From positions 1-64,000 of the forward strand of contig NZ_JACHKZ010000013.1 in assembly GCF_014207855.1 (NCBI RefSeq): 64,000 nt of DNA. Direction: 5' to 3'. Each line of letters begins with the position of its first letter. Within the stretch, counting starts at the first letter, position 1. The position numbers and the translations under genes were made by a program. Positions 6,775 to 12,513 of the stretch are shown here, in pieces. The notes under the pieces are model-generated. The model was not told the origin of the DNA. It made no database searches and saw only the letters and a list, made by a program, of their open reading frames with translations. The DNA is from Comamonas odontotermitis. Lineage in GTDB: Bacteria > Pseudomonadota > Gammaproteobacteria > Burkholderiales > Burkholderiaceae_C.

Positions 6775-7392
6775 ATGAATTCAATAGCAGATACCGTGCA
6801 ACAGCAGGGCGCAGGTGCCTATTTTCAATCCGTGCCGCTGGAGAAGGCCTACCGGCTGCTCAACCACGGGCCCACGGTGCTGGTGTCGGCCCAGCATGCG
6901 GGCGAGCGCAATGTGATGGCCGCAGCCTGGGCGTGCGCGCTGGATTTCAGCCCGCCCAAGGTAACGGTGGTGCTCGACAAGGCCACCCGAACCCGCGCAC
7001 TGGTGGAAGCCAGTGGCCGCTTTGCGCTGCAATTGCCCACGGTGCCGCAGGCTGCCATGACGGTGGAGTTGGGCACGGTCAGCGCCCTGCAGCAACCGGA
7101 CAAGCTGGTGCAATCGGGTGTGCAGCTGTTTGCCGCACCCGGGCACGGCACGCCCCTGGTCGCCGGTTGCGCAGCCTGGCTGGAATGCCGCCTGATCCCC
7201 GAGCAGCACAACCAGCAGGCGTATGACCTCTTTATTGGCGAGGTGACGGGTGCCTGGGCCGACAGCCGGGTGTTTGCCAACGGCCATTGGATGTTTGAAA
7301 CCGCTCCGCCCGAGCTGCGCACCCTTCACTACGTGGCGGGCGGTCATTTCTATGCGACAGGTGCGGCGGTGGTGGTGCCATCGCAGCCGTGA
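6775..7392 (+). CDS. Flavin reductase-like FMN-binding protein
   Basis: 205 residues matching the flavin reductase-like (flavoredoxin) split-barrel domain: PTVLVSAQHAGERNVMAAAW near residues 33-52, then ALQLPTVPQA and the C-terminal LHYVAGGHFYATG. Members bind FMN and either reduce flavin for a partner oxygenase or act as small redox proteins. No partner oxygenase is adjacent, so the role is open. It stands alone between the TctC-type gene and a convergent operon, and is followed by a terminator-like hairpin. Confidence 0.8.
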   Translation: MNSIADTVQQQGAGAYFQSVPLEKAYRLLNHGPTVLVSAQHAGERNVMAAAWACALDFSPPKVTVVLDKATRTRALVEASGRFALQLPTVPQAAMTVELGTVSALQQPDKLVQSGVQLFAAPGHGTPLVAGCAAWLECRLIPEQHNQQAYDLFIGEVTGAWADSRVFANGHWMFETAPPELRTLHYVAGGHFYATGAAVVVPSQP

Positions 7393-7433
7393 TGACGTTT
7401 GATCGCGGCCGAGGCGCTGTGGCGATGAGGTTC

Positions 7434-7485
7434 AGCCAGAACGAACCGTTGCGATAGAGCCGTTCTGGCTTTGGCTTTGGGTTTG
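7434..7485 (+). terminator. Terminator-like hairpin after the flavin reductase-like gene
   Basis: A perfect 10-bp stem (AGCCAGAACG at 7434-7443, CGTTCTGGCT at 7461-7470) with a 17-base loop. It is followed on the plus strand by a T-rich run interrupted by G. It lies between convergent genes. Confidence 0.55.
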
Positions 7486-7499
7486 CCTTTGGTGTGGGG

Positions 7500-7778
7500 T
7501 TACTTGCTCATGTTGTCTTTGGACATGGCGTCCTTGCCCATGGCGTCCTTCTTCATGGGATCCTTGCCCATGGCATCTTTACCCATGGCGTCCTTTTTCA
7601 TGGCGCCTTTGTCCATGGCGTCTTTGCCCATGCCGTCCTTGTGCTTGGCGTCCTTGTCCATGGCCGATGGTTTGTCCATGCCCATGGCGTCCTTGGCCAT
7701 TGGGTCGGCGGCAAAGGCGGAGGCAGCGCCCAAGGCGAGGCAAATGGAGAGTGCAGCGGTGGTGAATGCGTTTTTCAT
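7500..7778 (-). CDS. Methionine-rich MXKDX-repeat periplasmic peptide
   Basis: 92 residues: a signal peptide (1-23, ending AFA), then a 69-residue mature part built almost wholly of M-x-K-D-x pentapeptide units such as AMGKD and PMKKD. The mature part holds 13 Met, 16 Lys and 14 Asp, with no Cys and no aromatic residue. This is the named 'pentapeptide MXKDX repeat' family. It is the last gene of a set transcribed with an MsrP-like molybdoenzyme (93-bp gap) and a cytochrome b. In Azospira a Met-rich periplasmic peptide, MrpX, works with the methionine sulfoxide reductase YedY1 to absorb hypochlorite; a like role here is inference from composition and context. Confidence 0.85.
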   Translation of the reverse strand: MKNAFTTAALSICLALGAASAFAADPMAKDAMGMDKPSAMDKDAKHKDGMGKDAMDKGAMKKDAMGKDAMGKDPMKKDAMGKDAMSKDNMSK

Positions 7779-7871
7779 GATGGAACTTTCAAGGTTGAGG
7801 TTGCAGGAAACGGCACAAGCCGCGGGGAGAAAACGGCATGGGCCGTGGGGGAACGGAAACGGTGGCGGCTG

Positions 7872-8654
7872 TCAGCTGCCGCCGAACCAGTTGTAGCCCT
7901 GGTCTTCCCAGTAGCCACGGTTGTAGGTGTTGCTCACGAAGATGGCCGTGATGTGCTTGGGGTTCTTGTAGCCCAGCTTGGTTGGCATGCGCAGCTTCAT
8001 CGGAAAGCCGTAGCGGGGCGGCAGCGGCTGCCCGTCCCAGTCGATTGCCAGCAGCGTCTGCGGATGCAGGGCCGTGGCCATGTCGATGCTGGTGTAGTAG
8101 TTGTCGGCGCACTGAAAACCGACATAGCGTGCGCTGAGATCTGCGCCCACGGCGCGCAGAAAGTCACCAAAGCGCGGGCCACCCCACTTGCCGATGGCGC
8201 TCCAGCCTTCCACGCAGATGTGGCGCGTTACCTGGCTGTGCTGGGGCAGGGCGCGCAGCTCGTGCAGCTGCCAGCGGCGCTTGTCGGCAACAAGGCCGGT
8301 AACTTCCAGCCGGTAGCTGCCTGCATCTACGCGCGGTATCTCGCTTTCACCGTAGAAGGCGTTGAACGGAAAGGGGCGCGTGATCATTGAGTCGGGGTAG
8401 GTGGGCGCCAGGCGTGAAGCGTCGAACAGCCACCCCTGCGCGGCATCGTTGAAGCGGGAGATACGTGTGAGCGCCGCCTCGGCCGTGGCGCTGTCGTCGA
8501 TGCGGCAGCCGCTGAGCAGGGCAAGGCCGCCCAGCGTAAGACCGCGCCTGATGAATTGCCTGCGCGCATCCAGAGGCAGTTGCCTGGTGACCAGCTTGCG
8601 TGCCTCGGACACGACCGCGTCCGCATTGTCCCTCTGCCAGATGAATGGGTTCAT
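7872..8654 (-). CDS. MsrP-like molybdopterin-dependent oxidoreductase
   Basis: 260 residues from an ATG whose first bases overlap the stop of the cytochrome b gene (ATGA). The N-terminus has a twin-arginine motif (RRQFIRR) and hydrophobic core ending LLSGC, so Tat export is likely, perhaps with lipid anchoring. The sulfite-oxidase/MsrP fold is shown by RHICVEGWSAIGKWGG, whose Cys would bind molybdenum, and by PLPPRYGFPMKLRMP and YNRGYWEDQGYNW at the C-terminus. MsrP enzymes repair oxidised methionine in periplasmic proteins, taking electrons from a membrane heme protein; the cytochrome b here could supply them. It is shorter than E. coli MsrP, so other substrates are possible. Confidence 0.82.
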   Translation of the reverse strand: MNPFIWQRDNADAVVSEARKLVTRQLPLDARRQFIRRGLTLGGLALLSGCRIDDSATAEAALTRISRFNDAAQGWLFDASRLAPTYPDSMITRPFPFNAFYGESEIPRVDAGSYRLEVTGLVADKRRWQLHELRALPQHSQVTRHICVEGWSAIGKWGGPRFGDFLRAVGADLSARYVGFQCADNYYTSIDMATALHPQTLLAIDWDGQPLPPRYGFPMKLRMPTKLGYKNPKHITAIFVSNTYNRGYWEDQGYNWFGGS

Positions 8655-9313
8655 GTTGCGCTCTCCTGCTGTGTTGTGCGTTGCCATGTGGGGCGGCCCA
8701 GCAGCATGGTGAGCAGCGAGCGCGGCACCAGCACGACCATGGCGATGTGCACCGCGATGAAGCCGACCAGCAAGGCCATGGATATGAAGTGAATGCGCCG
8801 CGCCATCTCGTAGCCGCCCAACAGTTCTCGCAGCAGCGGAAACTGCACCGATTTCCAGATCACCAGGCCGCTCACGACCAGCAGCACCAGGTCTGCCACG
8901 GCGAACAGATACGCCGCGCGTTGCACCTGGTTGTAGTGGCCCAGGTCTGCATGGGACAGCCGCGCCGTCAGTGCAAGCCATGCATCGCGCAGTATGCCGC
9001 GCGGCGAGACGGGAAACATGCGCCGCGCCCAGCGGCCGGTAAGCAGGTTGAGCAGCAGATAGGCGAGGCCATTGACGGCCAGCAGCCACATGCCGGCAAA
9101 ATGCCATTGCAGTGCGCCCCCCAGCCAGCCCCCCAGGGTGATGCCGGCGGGAAAGGTGAAATCGCCAAAGATGGGCGAGGCGTTGTAGATGCGCCATCCG
9201 CTCATCACCATGACCACGACGGCCGCGGCATTGAGCCAGTGGGTGATGCGCAGCCACAGCGGTTGCAAAGGCCTGCGCTTGTGTGGAGATGCTGATGGAG
9301 TGTGCTTTGGCAT
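8651..9313 (-). CDS. Cytochrome b561-type membrane electron carrier
   Basis: 220 residues from the ATG at 9313; a TTG start at 9355 would add 14 residues and cannot be excluded because neither has a strong ribosome site. About four or five membrane segments are visible, with heme-ligand candidates in ITHWLNAAA, WHFAGMWLL and RRIHFISMALLVGFIAVHIAM. This matches the cytochrome b/b6 or thiosulfate-reductase cytochrome b domain. It heads a three-gene set with the molybdoenzyme (4-base overlap) and the Met-rich peptide, and would pass electrons from quinol to the periplasmic molybdoenzyme. It is not an MsrQ-type protein by appearance. Confidence 0.82.
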   Translation of the reverse strand: MPKHTPSASPHKRRPLQPLWLRITHWLNAAAVVVMVMSGWRIYNASPIFGDFTFPAGITLGGWLGGALQWHFAGMWLLAVNGLAYLLLNLLTGRWARRMFPVSPRGILRDAWLALTARLSHADLGHYNQVQRAAYLFAVADLVLLVVSGLVIWKSVQFPLLRELLGGYEMARRIHFISMALLVGFIAVHIAMVVLVPRSLLTMLLGRPTWQRTTQQESAT

Positions 9314-9408
9314 GGGTGCATTGTTCGGTGCGCCTGTTCCCCAAGTCCTCACCAAAAGTTCAAAAAATCGTGATACTTGACCGTGCGCTTCTGCAGGAGA
9401 ATGCGCTG

Positions 9409-10119
9409 ATGGACACCCCCAAACGCATCCTGATCGTCGAAGACGACGAACACATCGCCGAGCTGCTGCGCATGCACCTGAGCGATGAAGGCTTTGACGT
9501 CGAGCATGTGGCCGATGGCCGTCTGGGCCTGGAGGCCGTGGAGCGTGGCGGCTGGCATGCCCTGGTGCTGGACCTGATGCTGCCGGGCGTGGATGGCCTT
9601 GAAATCTGCCGGCGTGCGCGGGCCATGGCCTATTACGTGCCCATCATCATCACGAGTGCGCGCTCCAGCGAGGTGCATCGCATCCTGGGGCTGGAGCTGG
9701 GCGCTGACGACTATCTGGCCAAACCGTTCTCCGTGATGGAGCTGGTGGCTCGTGTGCGGGCGCTCTTGCGGCGCAGCGAGGCGCTGGCACGCAATGCCCG
9801 CCTGGAGTCTGGCGTGCTGGCGCTGTGCGGTCTCAGCATCGATCCGATTGCGCGCGAGGCACGGGTTGATGGCAAAGCGGTCGAGCTCACGCCGCGCGAG
9901 TTTGATCTGCTGTACTTCTTTGCCCGCCAGCCTGGCAAGGTGTTTTCAAGGCTCGACCTGCTCAACCATGTCTGGGGCTACCAGCACGATGGCTACGAGC
10001 ACACGGTCAACACGCATATCAACCGGCTGCGCACCAAGATCGAGAAGAACCCGGCCGATCCCCAGCGCATTCTCACGGTCTGGGGGCGTGGCTACAAACT
10101 CGCGGAGGATGCCCTGTGA
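9409..10119 (+). CDS. OmpR-family response regulator
   Basis: 236 residues: a receiver domain at about 5-118 with the acidic pair in IVEDDEH, the phospho-acceptor Asp in VLDLMLPGVDG (about 54) and the Lys in LAKPFS, then a winged-helix domain with VELTPREFDLL and VNTHINRLRTKIE. The ATG at 9409 is chosen because the protein starts directly at the first strand (KRILIVEDD). It overlaps the kinase gene by 4 bases and is divergent from the cytochrome b/MsrP-like operon. E. coli HprR (YedW) sits beside msrPQ in the same way, so control of the divergent operon is likely. Confidence 0.93.
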   Translation: MDTPKRILIVEDDEHIAELLRMHLSDEGFDVEHVADGRLGLEAVERGGWHALVLDLMLPGVDGLEICRRARAMAYYVPIIITSARSSEVHRILGLELGADDYLAKPFSVMELVARVRALLRRSEALARNARLESGVLALCGLSIDPIAREARVDGKAVELTPREFDLLYFFARQPGKVFSRLDLLNHVWGYQHDGYEHTVNTHINRLRTKIEKNPADPQRILTVWGRGYKLAEDAL

Positions 10120-11612
10120 TTGCAAGCCTTTCGCGGCGTCTGCAGCGCATGTCGCTGTCACAGCGCCTGTCGTCGGTGTTCGTGGTGTTGCTGCTGGCTT
10201 GCTGTGCGGCGTCAGTTGCCCTGCAGATGCGTGGCAGCGAGCGCCATGAGCAGATGGTCATCCAGCGGCTGTCCCTGAACCTTGCGCCGCAGATTGCGCT
10301 CTACCCTGAGCTGATGGAGCCGCAGGGGTTCAACCCTGCCGCGGTAAGCGGCCTGTTCGACAAGCTGATGGCGGTGAACCCGAGCGTTGAAGTCTATCTG
10401 CTCGATGCTGCGGGCCGCATACGGTCTTATTCGGCGCCCGAAGGAGCCGTCAAGCGCGCACAGATCGATCTTGCCCCGGTGCACCGCCTGCTGGGTGGCA
10501 CTGCGTTGCCGGTGTTTGGTGACGATCCACGCAACCCCCTGGGCCACAAGGTATTCAGCGCCGCACCGCTACAGCTGGCGGGCCGCGACGCAGGCTATGT
10601 GTACGTGATTTTGCAGGGCGAGAACCGCGAGTCGCTGGCCTCGCGTGTGAACGCGGGCAGCGCGGCAAACGCCATGCTGTGGTCGATGGGGCTGGTCGCC
10701 TTGCTCGGCATGGTCGCGGGGCTGGCGGCGTTCCGCCTGATCACGCGGCCGCTGCGCGCGCTCACCGAAGGCGTGCGTGGCCTGGAGGCCAATGGCCTGT
10801 CGTGGCTGCCGCAGGCCAGGCCCTTGCTGCACCGTGCGGCAAGGGGCGGCGGCGAGATGGCCTTGCTGAGCCAGAGTTTTGAGCGGCTTGCAGAGCGTAC
10901 CGAAGAACAATGGCAGGCGCTGCGGCAGCAAGACGAGCAGCGCCGCGAGCTCTTTGCCAATCTGTCGCACGATCTGCGCACGCCACTGACGTCGCTGCAT
11001 GGCTATCTGGAGACGCTGCGCATGAAATCGCAAGTGCTCGCGCCGCACGAGCAGGGCCGCTACCTTGACATTGCACTGGAGCAAAGCCGCAAGGTGGGCC
11101 GCCTCGCGCAGGAGATGTTTGAGCTTGCGCGGCTGGAATACGGCGTGGCCAAGCCGGACATGGAGCAGTTCTTTCTCACCGATCTGCTGCAGGATGTGTT
11201 CCAGAAATTCGAGTTGACCGTGCAGGCCAAGCAGCAACACCTGACGGCCGACATCGCGCCCGATCTGCCACCGGTGACGGCTGATCTTGCGATGATGGAG
11301 CGCGTGCTGGTGAACCTGATCGACAACGCAGTGTGCGCCACGCCAACGGGCGGCGAGATCACGGTCGCGCTGCAGCCGCATGCGGCTGGCGGCATTGAGG
11401 TGACGGTGCGCGATACCGGCCCGGGGGTATCGTCCGCCTTGAAGAAGCATTTGTTCGAGCGCCCGGTCGCAATGGATGCCGCATCGCCAAGTGCGCGCGC
11501 AGGAGGCTTCGGACTGTTGATCGTGCACCGCATCCTGCAATTGCATGCCAGTAAGATACGCTTGGTGCCGGATGCCGATAGCGGAGCTGTCTTTCACTTC
11601 GTGCTTCGATGA
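10116..11612 (+). CDS. Sensor histidine kinase, partner of the adjacent response regulator
   Basis: 498 residues from a GTG that overlaps the regulator's stop (GTGA). Layout: membrane segment at about 19-37, periplasmic sensor region at about 38-185, second membrane segment at about 186-208, HAMP, HisKA with FANLSHDLRTP (His about 285), then the ATPase domain with N-box NLIDNAV, G1 DTGPG and G2-like GGFGL. The sensor region contains several Met residues and no recognised ligand fold. In E. coli the similarly placed HprS responds to peroxide and hypochlorite; the same signal here is inference from context. Confidence 0.92.
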   Translation: MIASLSRRLQRMSLSQRLSSVFVVLLLACCAASVALQMRGSERHEQMVIQRLSLNLAPQIALYPELMEPQGFNPAAVSGLFDKLMAVNPSVEVYLLDAAGRIRSYSAPEGAVKRAQIDLAPVHRLLGGTALPVFGDDPRNPLGHKVFSAAPLQLAGRDAGYVYVILQGENRESLASRVNAGSAANAMLWSMGLVALLGMVAGLAAFRLITRPLRALTEGVRGLEANGLSWLPQARPLLHRAARGGGEMALLSQSFERLAERTEEQWQALRQQDEQRRELFANLSHDLRTPLTSLHGYLETLRMKSQVLAPHEQGRYLDIALEQSRKVGRLAQEMFELARLEYGVAKPDMEQFFLTDLLQDVFQKFELTVQAKQQHLTADIAPDLPPVTADLAMMERVLVNLIDNAVCATPTGGEITVALQPHAAGGIEVTVRDTGPGVSSALKKHLFERPVAMDAASPSARAGGFGLLIVHRILQLHASKIRLVPDADSGAVFHFVLR

Positions 11613-11630
11613 TTGAAGCTTGGACAGTGG

Positions 11631-11666
11631 CGATCGCAATCGCAATCGCAATCGCAAACGGAATCG
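11631..11666 (+). repeat. Short tandem hexamer tract
   Basis: Six hexamer units in a row: CGATCG, three perfect CAATCG, then CAAACG and GAATCG. The tract starts 18 bases after the kinase stop codon and lies before the next gene. It could change length by slippage; no function is apparent. Confidence 0.6.
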
Positions 11667-11712
11667 TTAAAGGTGCCGCGTCAGGCCTTCAACAGGCATA
11701 AAGGTGTTCGGG

Positions 11713-12513
11713 ATGTATCTGATCTGGCTGGCAGGTGCGGTGGCACTGGTCGTTGGGGTGTGGTGGCGCAGGCGCGTGGGGCGCTCTCGCCTGCAGCGGC
11801 AGCGTCTGCGTTATGTGCAAGCCTATGCTTTCCAGCCGCGCTACCACGATGCCCTGCGCGTCGCCTATCCGCAACTGGACGCAGAGGGCTTCAAGCAGGC
11901 TGAGCAGGCGTTGCGCCAGTTCTTCATCATGCATCTGCTGGCACCTGGCGAGCGACTGTTGATGCCATCCAACCTGGCAGATGCGCTCTGGCATACCTTC
12001 ATTCTGGATACGCGGCGCTACCAGCAGTTTTGCCAGCAGGCGTTCGGGCAGATTTTTCACCATATTCCGTCGCATGACATGCCTTCTTCGGCAAGTGTTG
12101 CAGGGCAGGGGGGCCGAGAGCGCATGCAGGCCACCTGGAATGCGGCAATGGCGTCAAAGCGCTGGTTGCCCTTGGCCATGCTGGGTGGCATACCGCTTCT
12201 GTTTGCACTGGATGCCCATAGCGGCATTGAAGGAGGGCAGCGCTTTGCCGAAGCCGATCTGCGCTACTGGGCGGTGCAGTACGCAAGGGTGGTATCTGCC
12301 GGCAATGCAGACACATCTGGCGGCAGTGCGAGCTCGGGCTCCGGTGAGTCAGACCATCCGAGTAGTTGGAGCTCGGATTCGGGAACCAGCGGCTCGTCGT
12401 GTACTACACGCAGCACAGGCGGCGATGATGGCGGCAGCAGTGGCTCCAGCTCCTGCGACAGCAACAGCTCCAGCTGCAGTGGAAGCAGCTGCGGCGGTGG
12501 CGGCAGCGACTGA
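11713..12513 (+). CDS. Glycine-rich-domain-like membrane protein with Ser/Gly/Cys tail
   Basis: 266 residues. An N-terminal membrane segment (1-19) is followed by a soluble domain with DALWHTFILDTRRYQQFC and IFHHIP, the pattern of the bacterial 'glycine-rich domain' (DUF1399-like) family. A second membrane segment lies near 157-171. The last 70 residues are low complexity, almost only Ser, Gly, Asp and Cys, ending CGGGGSD. The ATG at 11713 has AAGG 9 bases upstream; an in-frame GTG at 11704 is the alternative. Function unknown. It follows the two-component genes on the same strand after a repeat tract but need not be co-transcribed. Confidence 0.75.
   Translation: MYLIWLAGAVALVVGVWWRRRVGRSRLQRQRLRYVQAYAFQPRYHDALRVAYPQLDAEGFKQAEQALRQFFIMHLLAPGERLLMPSNLADALWHTFILDTRRYQQFCQQAFGQIFHHIPSHDMPSSASVAGQGGRERMQATWNAAMASKRWLPLAMLGGIPLLFALDAHSGIEGGQRFAEADLRYWAVQYARVVSAGNADTSGGSASSGSGESDHPSSWSSDSGTSGSSCTTRSTGGDDGGSSGSSSCDSNSSSCSGSSCGGGGSD

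Follow-up and report, generated by a model that had tools for sequence, protein, structure and literature searches.

In Escherichia coli, MsrPQ under HprSR pairs a molybdoenzyme of the sulfite-oxidase fold with a membrane electron donor for the repair of methionine sulfoxide (MetSO) in the envelope. The SigF/NrsF-YedY1(YedYZ)-MrpX set of Azospira is said, in work attributed to Melnyk and the year 2015, to form a recyclable sink for hypochlorous acid (HOCl). The control of Azospira MrpX/YedY1 by SigF/NrsF is reported in PMC5748585 and PMC4623255, the latter of which also describes exported msrA/msrB in perchlorate islands. In Brucella, BcrXQP is controlled by an HOCl-responsive sigma/anti-sigma pair (BcrS/AbcS) of extracytoplasmic function (ECF) group 16, ECF16, and includes MsrQ/MsrP homologs according to the authors (PMC8315932). 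In uropathogenic E. coli (UPEC; strain CFT073), the two-component system OrhK/OrhR activates c3566-c3568, encoding cytochrome B, an MsrP-like protein (27.6% to MsrP) and a small Met-rich peptide, as well as peroxide resistance, and tert-butyl hydroperoxide induces the operon by way of this system (PMC8550376). Here we describe a locus at positions 7500..11612 of a 64,000-nucleotide stretch of Comamonas odontotermitis DNA (the window, meaning the whole stretch analysed) that encodes a Met-rich peptide, a molybdoenzyme, a cytochrome b and a divergent regulator and sensor kinase.

We regard this locus as a betaproteobacterial OrhK/OrhR-type envelope oxidant-defence module with a recyclable Met sink, a reading to which we assign a probability of roughly 0.78. 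A two-component-driven set of cytochrome b, MsrP-like enzyme and Met-rich peptide is already known from UPEC, and the window holds a further member. Its gene content, its orthology, its palindromic box and the association of such loci with MetSO-repair genes were observed directly. What the sequence comparison clearly adds to the published systems is a conserved box, a predicted regulon and an apparent regulator swap.

Organization of the window locus

Three genes on the minus strand form one operon. The first encodes a cytochrome b561-type membrane protein of 220 aa (8651..9313; PF01292, 76 bits) and overlaps by 4 bp the gene of a 260 aa MsrP-like molybdoenzyme of the sulfite-oxidase fold (7872..8654; PF00174, 113 bits), which looks like a lipoprotein exported by the twin-arginine translocation (Tat) pathway. 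The stop codon of the molybdoenzyme lies 93 bp from the start of the third gene, for a secreted MXKDX repeat peptide of 92 aa (7500..7778), assigned to the MrpX/BcrX/C3568 kind by TIGR02953, composition and repeat count. Divergent from this operon, on the plus strand, are an OmpR-type response regulator, an OrhR ortholog (9409..10119; PF00072 and PF00486), and a sensor histidine kinase, an OrhK ortholog with a PAS/Cache-like sensor in the periplasm (10116..11612; PF00512 and PF02518); the genes of the two also overlap by 4 bp. The best start of the regulator is the ATG at 9409; the family scan was run from 9400.

These coordinates and family matches bear out the layout given in an initial annotation of the same DNA, namely a peptide with 13 Met in 69 residues encoded after a molybdoenzyme and a cytochrome b with a 4-bp overlap, divergent from a regulator and kinase. 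That annotation had also proposed a genome search for the same gene order, and one was found: E. coli plasmid pVR50B carries the identical five-gene order and the same box, with identities to the window of 45% for the kinase, 66% for the regulator, 55% for the cytochrome, 58% for the molybdoenzyme and 43% for the peptide. A divergent kinase/regulator pair facing a cytochrome b-molybdoenzyme-peptide operon is the arrangement of the OrhK/OrhR module, here as compared with pVR50B.

A conserved palindrome at two-component loci

To place the window among its relatives, 120 loci were compared: the window, the best 80 of at least 501 confirmed relatives, 38 further stretches and E. coli pVR50B. The 113 loci with a molybdoenzyme match of at least 200 bits and a cytochrome match were kept (L058, L105 and L151-L155 were left out); they include three pairs with identical molybdoenzymes (L113/L129, L117/L130 and L080/L122). 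Commonly, cytochrome b immediately preceded the molybdoenzyme and the MXKDX peptide immediately followed it. An OrhR-type regulator stood beside the operon in 30 loci, 22 were of SigF/NrsF type (sigma or NrsF within the stretch; both in 21, sigma alone in L092), five had a third type of kinase, and no regulator was recognised in 56.

The spacer between cytochrome b and regulator in the window contains a palindromic box, TCACGATTTTTTGAACTTTTGGTGA (9349..9373, minus-strand letters), at about the same distance from both divergent start codons, which is presumed to be an OrhR-type binding site. The pattern TCAC-N17-GTGA was present in this spacer in 29 of the 30 two-component loci, compared with 0.065 expected from shuffled spacers, and the thirtieth (L040) had the box with one mismatch. 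It was found in none of the 22 SigF/NrsF-type loci, none of the five third-kinase-type loci and 20 of the 56 others. Conservation extended into the N17 part, which had been left free in the search: all 29 sites agreed at seven columns, and mean pairwise identity was 0.79, with values of 0.49 and 0.55 for the flanks. Allowing up to one mismatch, the window box was the single match in the 4.5-Mb genome of its own organism, and the reversed control gave 0.

UPEC OrhR binds the operon promoter, with a reported site of TCACA-N15-TGTGA (PMC8550376). The window box has the same half-site core and spacing, and the two inverted half-sites that the OrhK/OrhR module requires in the operon promoter are present as a predicted site in both the window and pVR50B. 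No description of a box conserved across lineages, or of the MsrB arm presented below, was found in the accessible parts of the literature searched.

One cassette under different regulators

An ECF16 promoter consensus has been published (PMC3420878). With a looser pattern of this kind (GTAAC-N14-18-CGA/T), an ECF16-like element was located within 1.5 kb upstream in 21 of the 22 SigF/NrsF-type loci (3.7 expected from shuffles), and within 300 bp in 12 of them (0.85 expected); the strict pattern was found in four. The same element occurred within 1.5 kb in only one of the 30 two-component loci and in four of the 56 others, and within 300 bp in none of the two-component loci. As read from these patterns, one effector cassette clearly appears to be placed under either a two-component system or SigF/NrsF, each with a matching promoter signal that does not overlap with the other. 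In a molybdoenzyme tree built by a quick method, with 55 of 115 inner branches unresolved, there were at least four changes of regulator type. The OrhR-type loci fell into two clades, one of Enterobacterales (support 99) and one of Comamonadaceae, Alcaligenaceae and Pseudomonas (support 93).

Relatives of the exported MsrA of L119 (tblastn, at least 100 bits) were identified in 28 of the 113 stretches: in 12 of 30 two-component, 12 of 22 SigF/NrsF-type, none of five third-type and four of 56 other loci.

Several neighbours recurred in the compared loci. The third kinase/regulator type lies near the cytochrome b-molybdoenzyme pair in L114, L115, L116, L138 and L146, which are loci without the MXKDX peptide, and in L114, L115 and L138 a short, exported-looking protein of a family that was not recognised (c27) follows. 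Pseudomonas loci L047, L049, L070 and L074 have a single-domain response-regulator receiver (PF00072 in L070) downstream of the peptide. A DUF1223 protein (PF06764, identified in L099) is often encoded directly upstream of cytochrome b (L092, L093, L098, L099, L117 and others), in SigF/NrsF-type loci among others.

Unlinked regulators and a predicted MsrB arm

A box without an adjacent regulator leads one to expect an unlinked OrhR elsewhere in the genome. Eleven genomes of the 20 box-only loci were searched (ten of Pseudomonas and one of a congener of the window organism), and all 11 encoded an unlinked regulator ortholog with 72-77% identity. By comparison, an ortholog of at least 72% was present in only four of 22 genomes of loci with neither box nor OrhR pair (Fisher p 7e-6).

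A looser box pattern, written after the MsrB-side boxes were known and missing the known cytochrome-operon box of genome G309, gave 37 sites in 26 of 30 genomes. Thirty sites were inspected; 22 of these lie before cytochrome b-molybdoenzyme genes and eight between the regulator and MsrB. The MsrB frames at all eight regulator-side sites have a Tat-type signal, as judged by eye, and are followed by an MsrA or DsbD-like gene. The MsrB of L159 was confirmed by PF01641 and TIGR00357, and the DsbD-like proteins, at 23.6 and 24, fell just short of the 27.1 required for DsbD_TM. Judging from coordinates, six of the remaining seven sites have a regulator ortholog at a distance of 59-186 bp.

Together, the boxes strongly suggest a regulon with two arms, one a quinol-powered cytochrome b561-molybdoenzyme pair with a sacrificial peptide, and the other an exported MsrB with MsrA/DsbD-like partners. 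We speculate that OrhR might be the master of such a two-armed envelope Met-repair regulon through one palindrome, with the kinase responding to a soluble product of oxidation, e.g., free methionine sulfoxide, and not to the oxidant itself, although we consider this combined proposal rather improbable. The genome of the window organism yielded one MsrA and one MsrB, neither with a signal peptide evident by eye, and so the MsrB arm was not seen in this organism.

Properties of the encoded proteins

After a likely signal-peptide cleavage between AFA and AD, judged by eye, the mature peptide has 69 residues, with 13 Met, 16 Lys, 14 Asp, no Cys, one His and nine MxKDx units. Its score of 86.3 bits against TIGR02953 passes the curated cut-off of 41, so the match is not due to chance, and it is the sole TIGR02953 match in its own genome (E 0.1). 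We propose that it is a sacrificial oxidant sink.

The lipobox Cys50 of the molybdoenzyme was retained in all 113 relatives, and the enzyme combines the sulfite-oxidase fold with a conserved Cys, Cys147, as the presumed Mo ligand. The initial annotation had called it a Tat-type, MsrP-like molybdoenzyme; the fold and the best model agree with that, its score is below the MsrP cut-off (see below), and Cys50 leads us to amend the description to a probable Tat lipoprotein. At E 1e-30, the family was present in 38 of 300 order-level genomes. Matches above 380 bits numbered 34, in 31 of these genomes, and 19 of the 34 had a TIGR02953 match within 3 kb, from coordinates.

In the cytochrome b, His25 and His71 were kept in 110 of 110 relatives, and His175 and His189 in 111 of 111, counting those with a letter at the position. 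This protein is presumed to be the electron supply from quinol to the molybdoenzyme. The earlier description of it as a cytochrome b instead of MsrQ is misleading. The genome has a separate MsrP-MsrQ pair with both proteins above their model cut-offs (MsrP 477.9 bits), and the window set is thus an additional system; substitution for MsrQ is thereby ruled out as the whole story. The window molybdoenzyme is 28% identical to the MsrP of its own genome, and no significant match was found between the window cytochrome (PF01292) and its MsrQ (PF01794; E 0.54).

For the kinase, the model of the sensor (pLDDT, a predicted local confidence score, 75) gave Foldseek matches to periplasmic sensors of the citrate and dicarboxylate types, CitA (2j80, E 5.7e-4) and DctB (2zbb, E 1.8e-3), with a WalK model at the top of the list (2.4e-5). 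The part examined has no invariant Cys, and its only invariant Met is Met85 (28 of 28), which is weak evidence among many invariant residues.

Downstream of the kinase stop, short tandem CAATCG-type repeats occupy 11622-11665, ahead of the next gene (11704-12513, plus strand), which encodes a 269-aa protein with a long Ser/Gly/Cys-rich C-terminal tail and without a Pfam or NCBIfam match.

Alternative explanations

Binding of Cu(I)/Ag(I) is possible for Met-rich peptides of the periplasm, and the peptide could on that basis be a copper or silver chaperone, with a two-component system that senses metal in the manner of Cus/Cop. CusS (rank 8) and CzcS (rank 43) do figure among the Foldseek hits for the sensor of the kinase. 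The regulator, however, scored 174 bits where the heavy-metal regulator model requires 279, every inspected box was at a cytochrome-molybdoenzyme operon or at MsrB, and the mature peptide is devoid of Cys and has a single His; we therefore rejected a metal sensor as highly improbable. Slightly less credible still is that the molybdoenzyme is an oxidase of the sulfite dehydrogenase type whose link to Met oxidation is coincidental. The fold comparison itself left MsrP tied with sulfite dehydrogenase. What speaks for a reductase is that MsrP ranked first among the models and 1xdq first among the sequences with a solved structure, that the Cys region of the window enzyme (CVEGWS) resembles that of 1xdq (CVEAWS) and not that of plant sulfite oxidase (CAGNRR), and that MsrA/MsrB genes are repeatedly linked to such loci.

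A more substantial alternative, although one we still think unlikely, is that the molybdoenzyme, together with cytochrome b, acts as a general reductase of envelope protein or small-molecule sulfoxides, with the peptide serving as a reporter or minor substrate and not as the main sink. In UPEC, peroxide sensitivity is described for c3564, c3565, c3566 and c3567 mutants and, in the accessible part of PMC8550376, none for c3568. A review reports that yedY of P. fluorescens increases with hypochlorite, and its accessible part does not state the enzyme type (PMC7464077). By pattern, no MXKDX peptide was recognised in 31 of the 113 loci, four of the 30 two-component loci among them. Against a minor role, the peptide was recognised in the other 82, mostly as the next gene after the molybdoenzyme, and it also occurs apart from it. 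TIGR02953 was present in 39 of the 300 order-level genomes, 24 of them above the cut-off, and six of the latter have a peptide with no strong molybdoenzyme match beside it. MsrB or MsrA occurs at three of the six loci (L202, L203 and L204; families confirmed in L202 and L204) and sigma plus NrsF at three (L202, L203 and L207), four loci in all; L205 has a partial molybdoenzyme match and L206 only a weak DsbD-like match.

The reading of the window as an OrhK/OrhR-type module with a recyclable Met sink has itself to be weighed against several findings, of which the missing peptides and the tied fold comparison are two. The MsrP equivalog NF003767 was the best model for the molybdoenzyme, yet at 68.2 bits against a cut-off of 207. 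The regulator did not reach the HprR cut-off (156.6 against 353 bits), which excludes HprSR membership and reduces the comparison with HprSR in the initial annotation to an analogy. The loci with the box are confined to two clades of a tree that is resolved only in part, so much of the conservation of the box reflects shared descent, and 36 of the 113 loci had no box and no recognised regulator in the stretch. The four genomes with a regulator ortholog had no box at the cytochrome operon; in three it was at the MsrB promoter instead, and in the fourth, Edwardsiella (L097/G324), where the operon and an OrhR ortholog are both present, no box was recognisable. The looser pattern also gave four matches in the reversed control, and one match in a Pseudomonas genome (G300:C40:18716-18740) was placed at neither target operon. 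In the window organism, the scan with up to one mismatch revealed no box at an MsrB operon, and a sigma-70 promoter scan of 7300-11800 gave 0 matches, with 0.6 expected.

Proposed mechanism

From the comparison with the published systems, we infer oxidant sensing, box binding, MetSO reduction and an electron path for the OrhK/OrhR-type module of the window. The kinase would sense periplasmic oxidative stress and phosphorylate the regulator, which would then bind TCAC-N17-GTGA in the divergent promoter and turn on the cytochrome b-molybdoenzyme-peptide operon. Hypochlorite or peroxides would react with the peptide, converting Met to sulfoxides, and the membrane-tethered molybdoenzyme would reduce these with electrons from quinol passed on by cytochrome b561, such that the sink could be recycled.

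Comparison with known systems

The initial annotation had proposed a Met sink with repair enzyme and electron supply under two-component control. Comparative genomics supports this well, in that the cassette appears under either regulator and loci with the box or the peptide lie beside exported MsrA/MsrB; novelty is the part that does not stand. Likewise, a two-component system in place of SigF/NrsF holds for the window and the 30-locus group and is not new, given the published OrhK/OrhR-c3566-c3568 system (PMC8550376). The UPEC system can now be placed in a broad environmental family that spans Comamonadaceae, Alcaligenaceae, Pseudomonas and Enterobacterales and for which we provide a box for the regulator and, as predictions, two target operons. 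The family also provides a clean case of the same effector cassette under different regulators, two-component or ECF sigma, each with its own promoter signal.

Compared with E. coli MsrPQ/HprSR, the window shares the fold and a membrane donor, and differs in that the MsrP and HprR cut-offs are not reached. Brucella BcrXQP likewise joins an MXKDX peptide to a Met-sulfoxide reductase pair and is HOCl-induced; it differs by having MsrQ/MsrP homologs and an ECF16 sigma factor (PMC8315932). The Azospira SigF/NrsF-YedY1-MrpX set also has a Met-rich periplasmic peptide, an MsrP-like enzyme and a quinol-linked partner, but it is under a sigma/anti-sigma pair whereas the window set is under a two-component system, and the window locus, which falls in the two-component group, does not have the adjacent ECF16 sigma and NrsF genes or, within 300 bp, the ECF16-like promoter element of the Azospira type. 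The CFT073 operon continues into hemolysin genes (PMC8550376), while that of the window faces a convergent flavin-reductase-like gene downstream. With OrhK/OrhR-c3566-c3568 of CFT073, the window has in common the two-component system, the cytochrome b, the MsrP-like molybdoenzyme and the Met-rich peptide.

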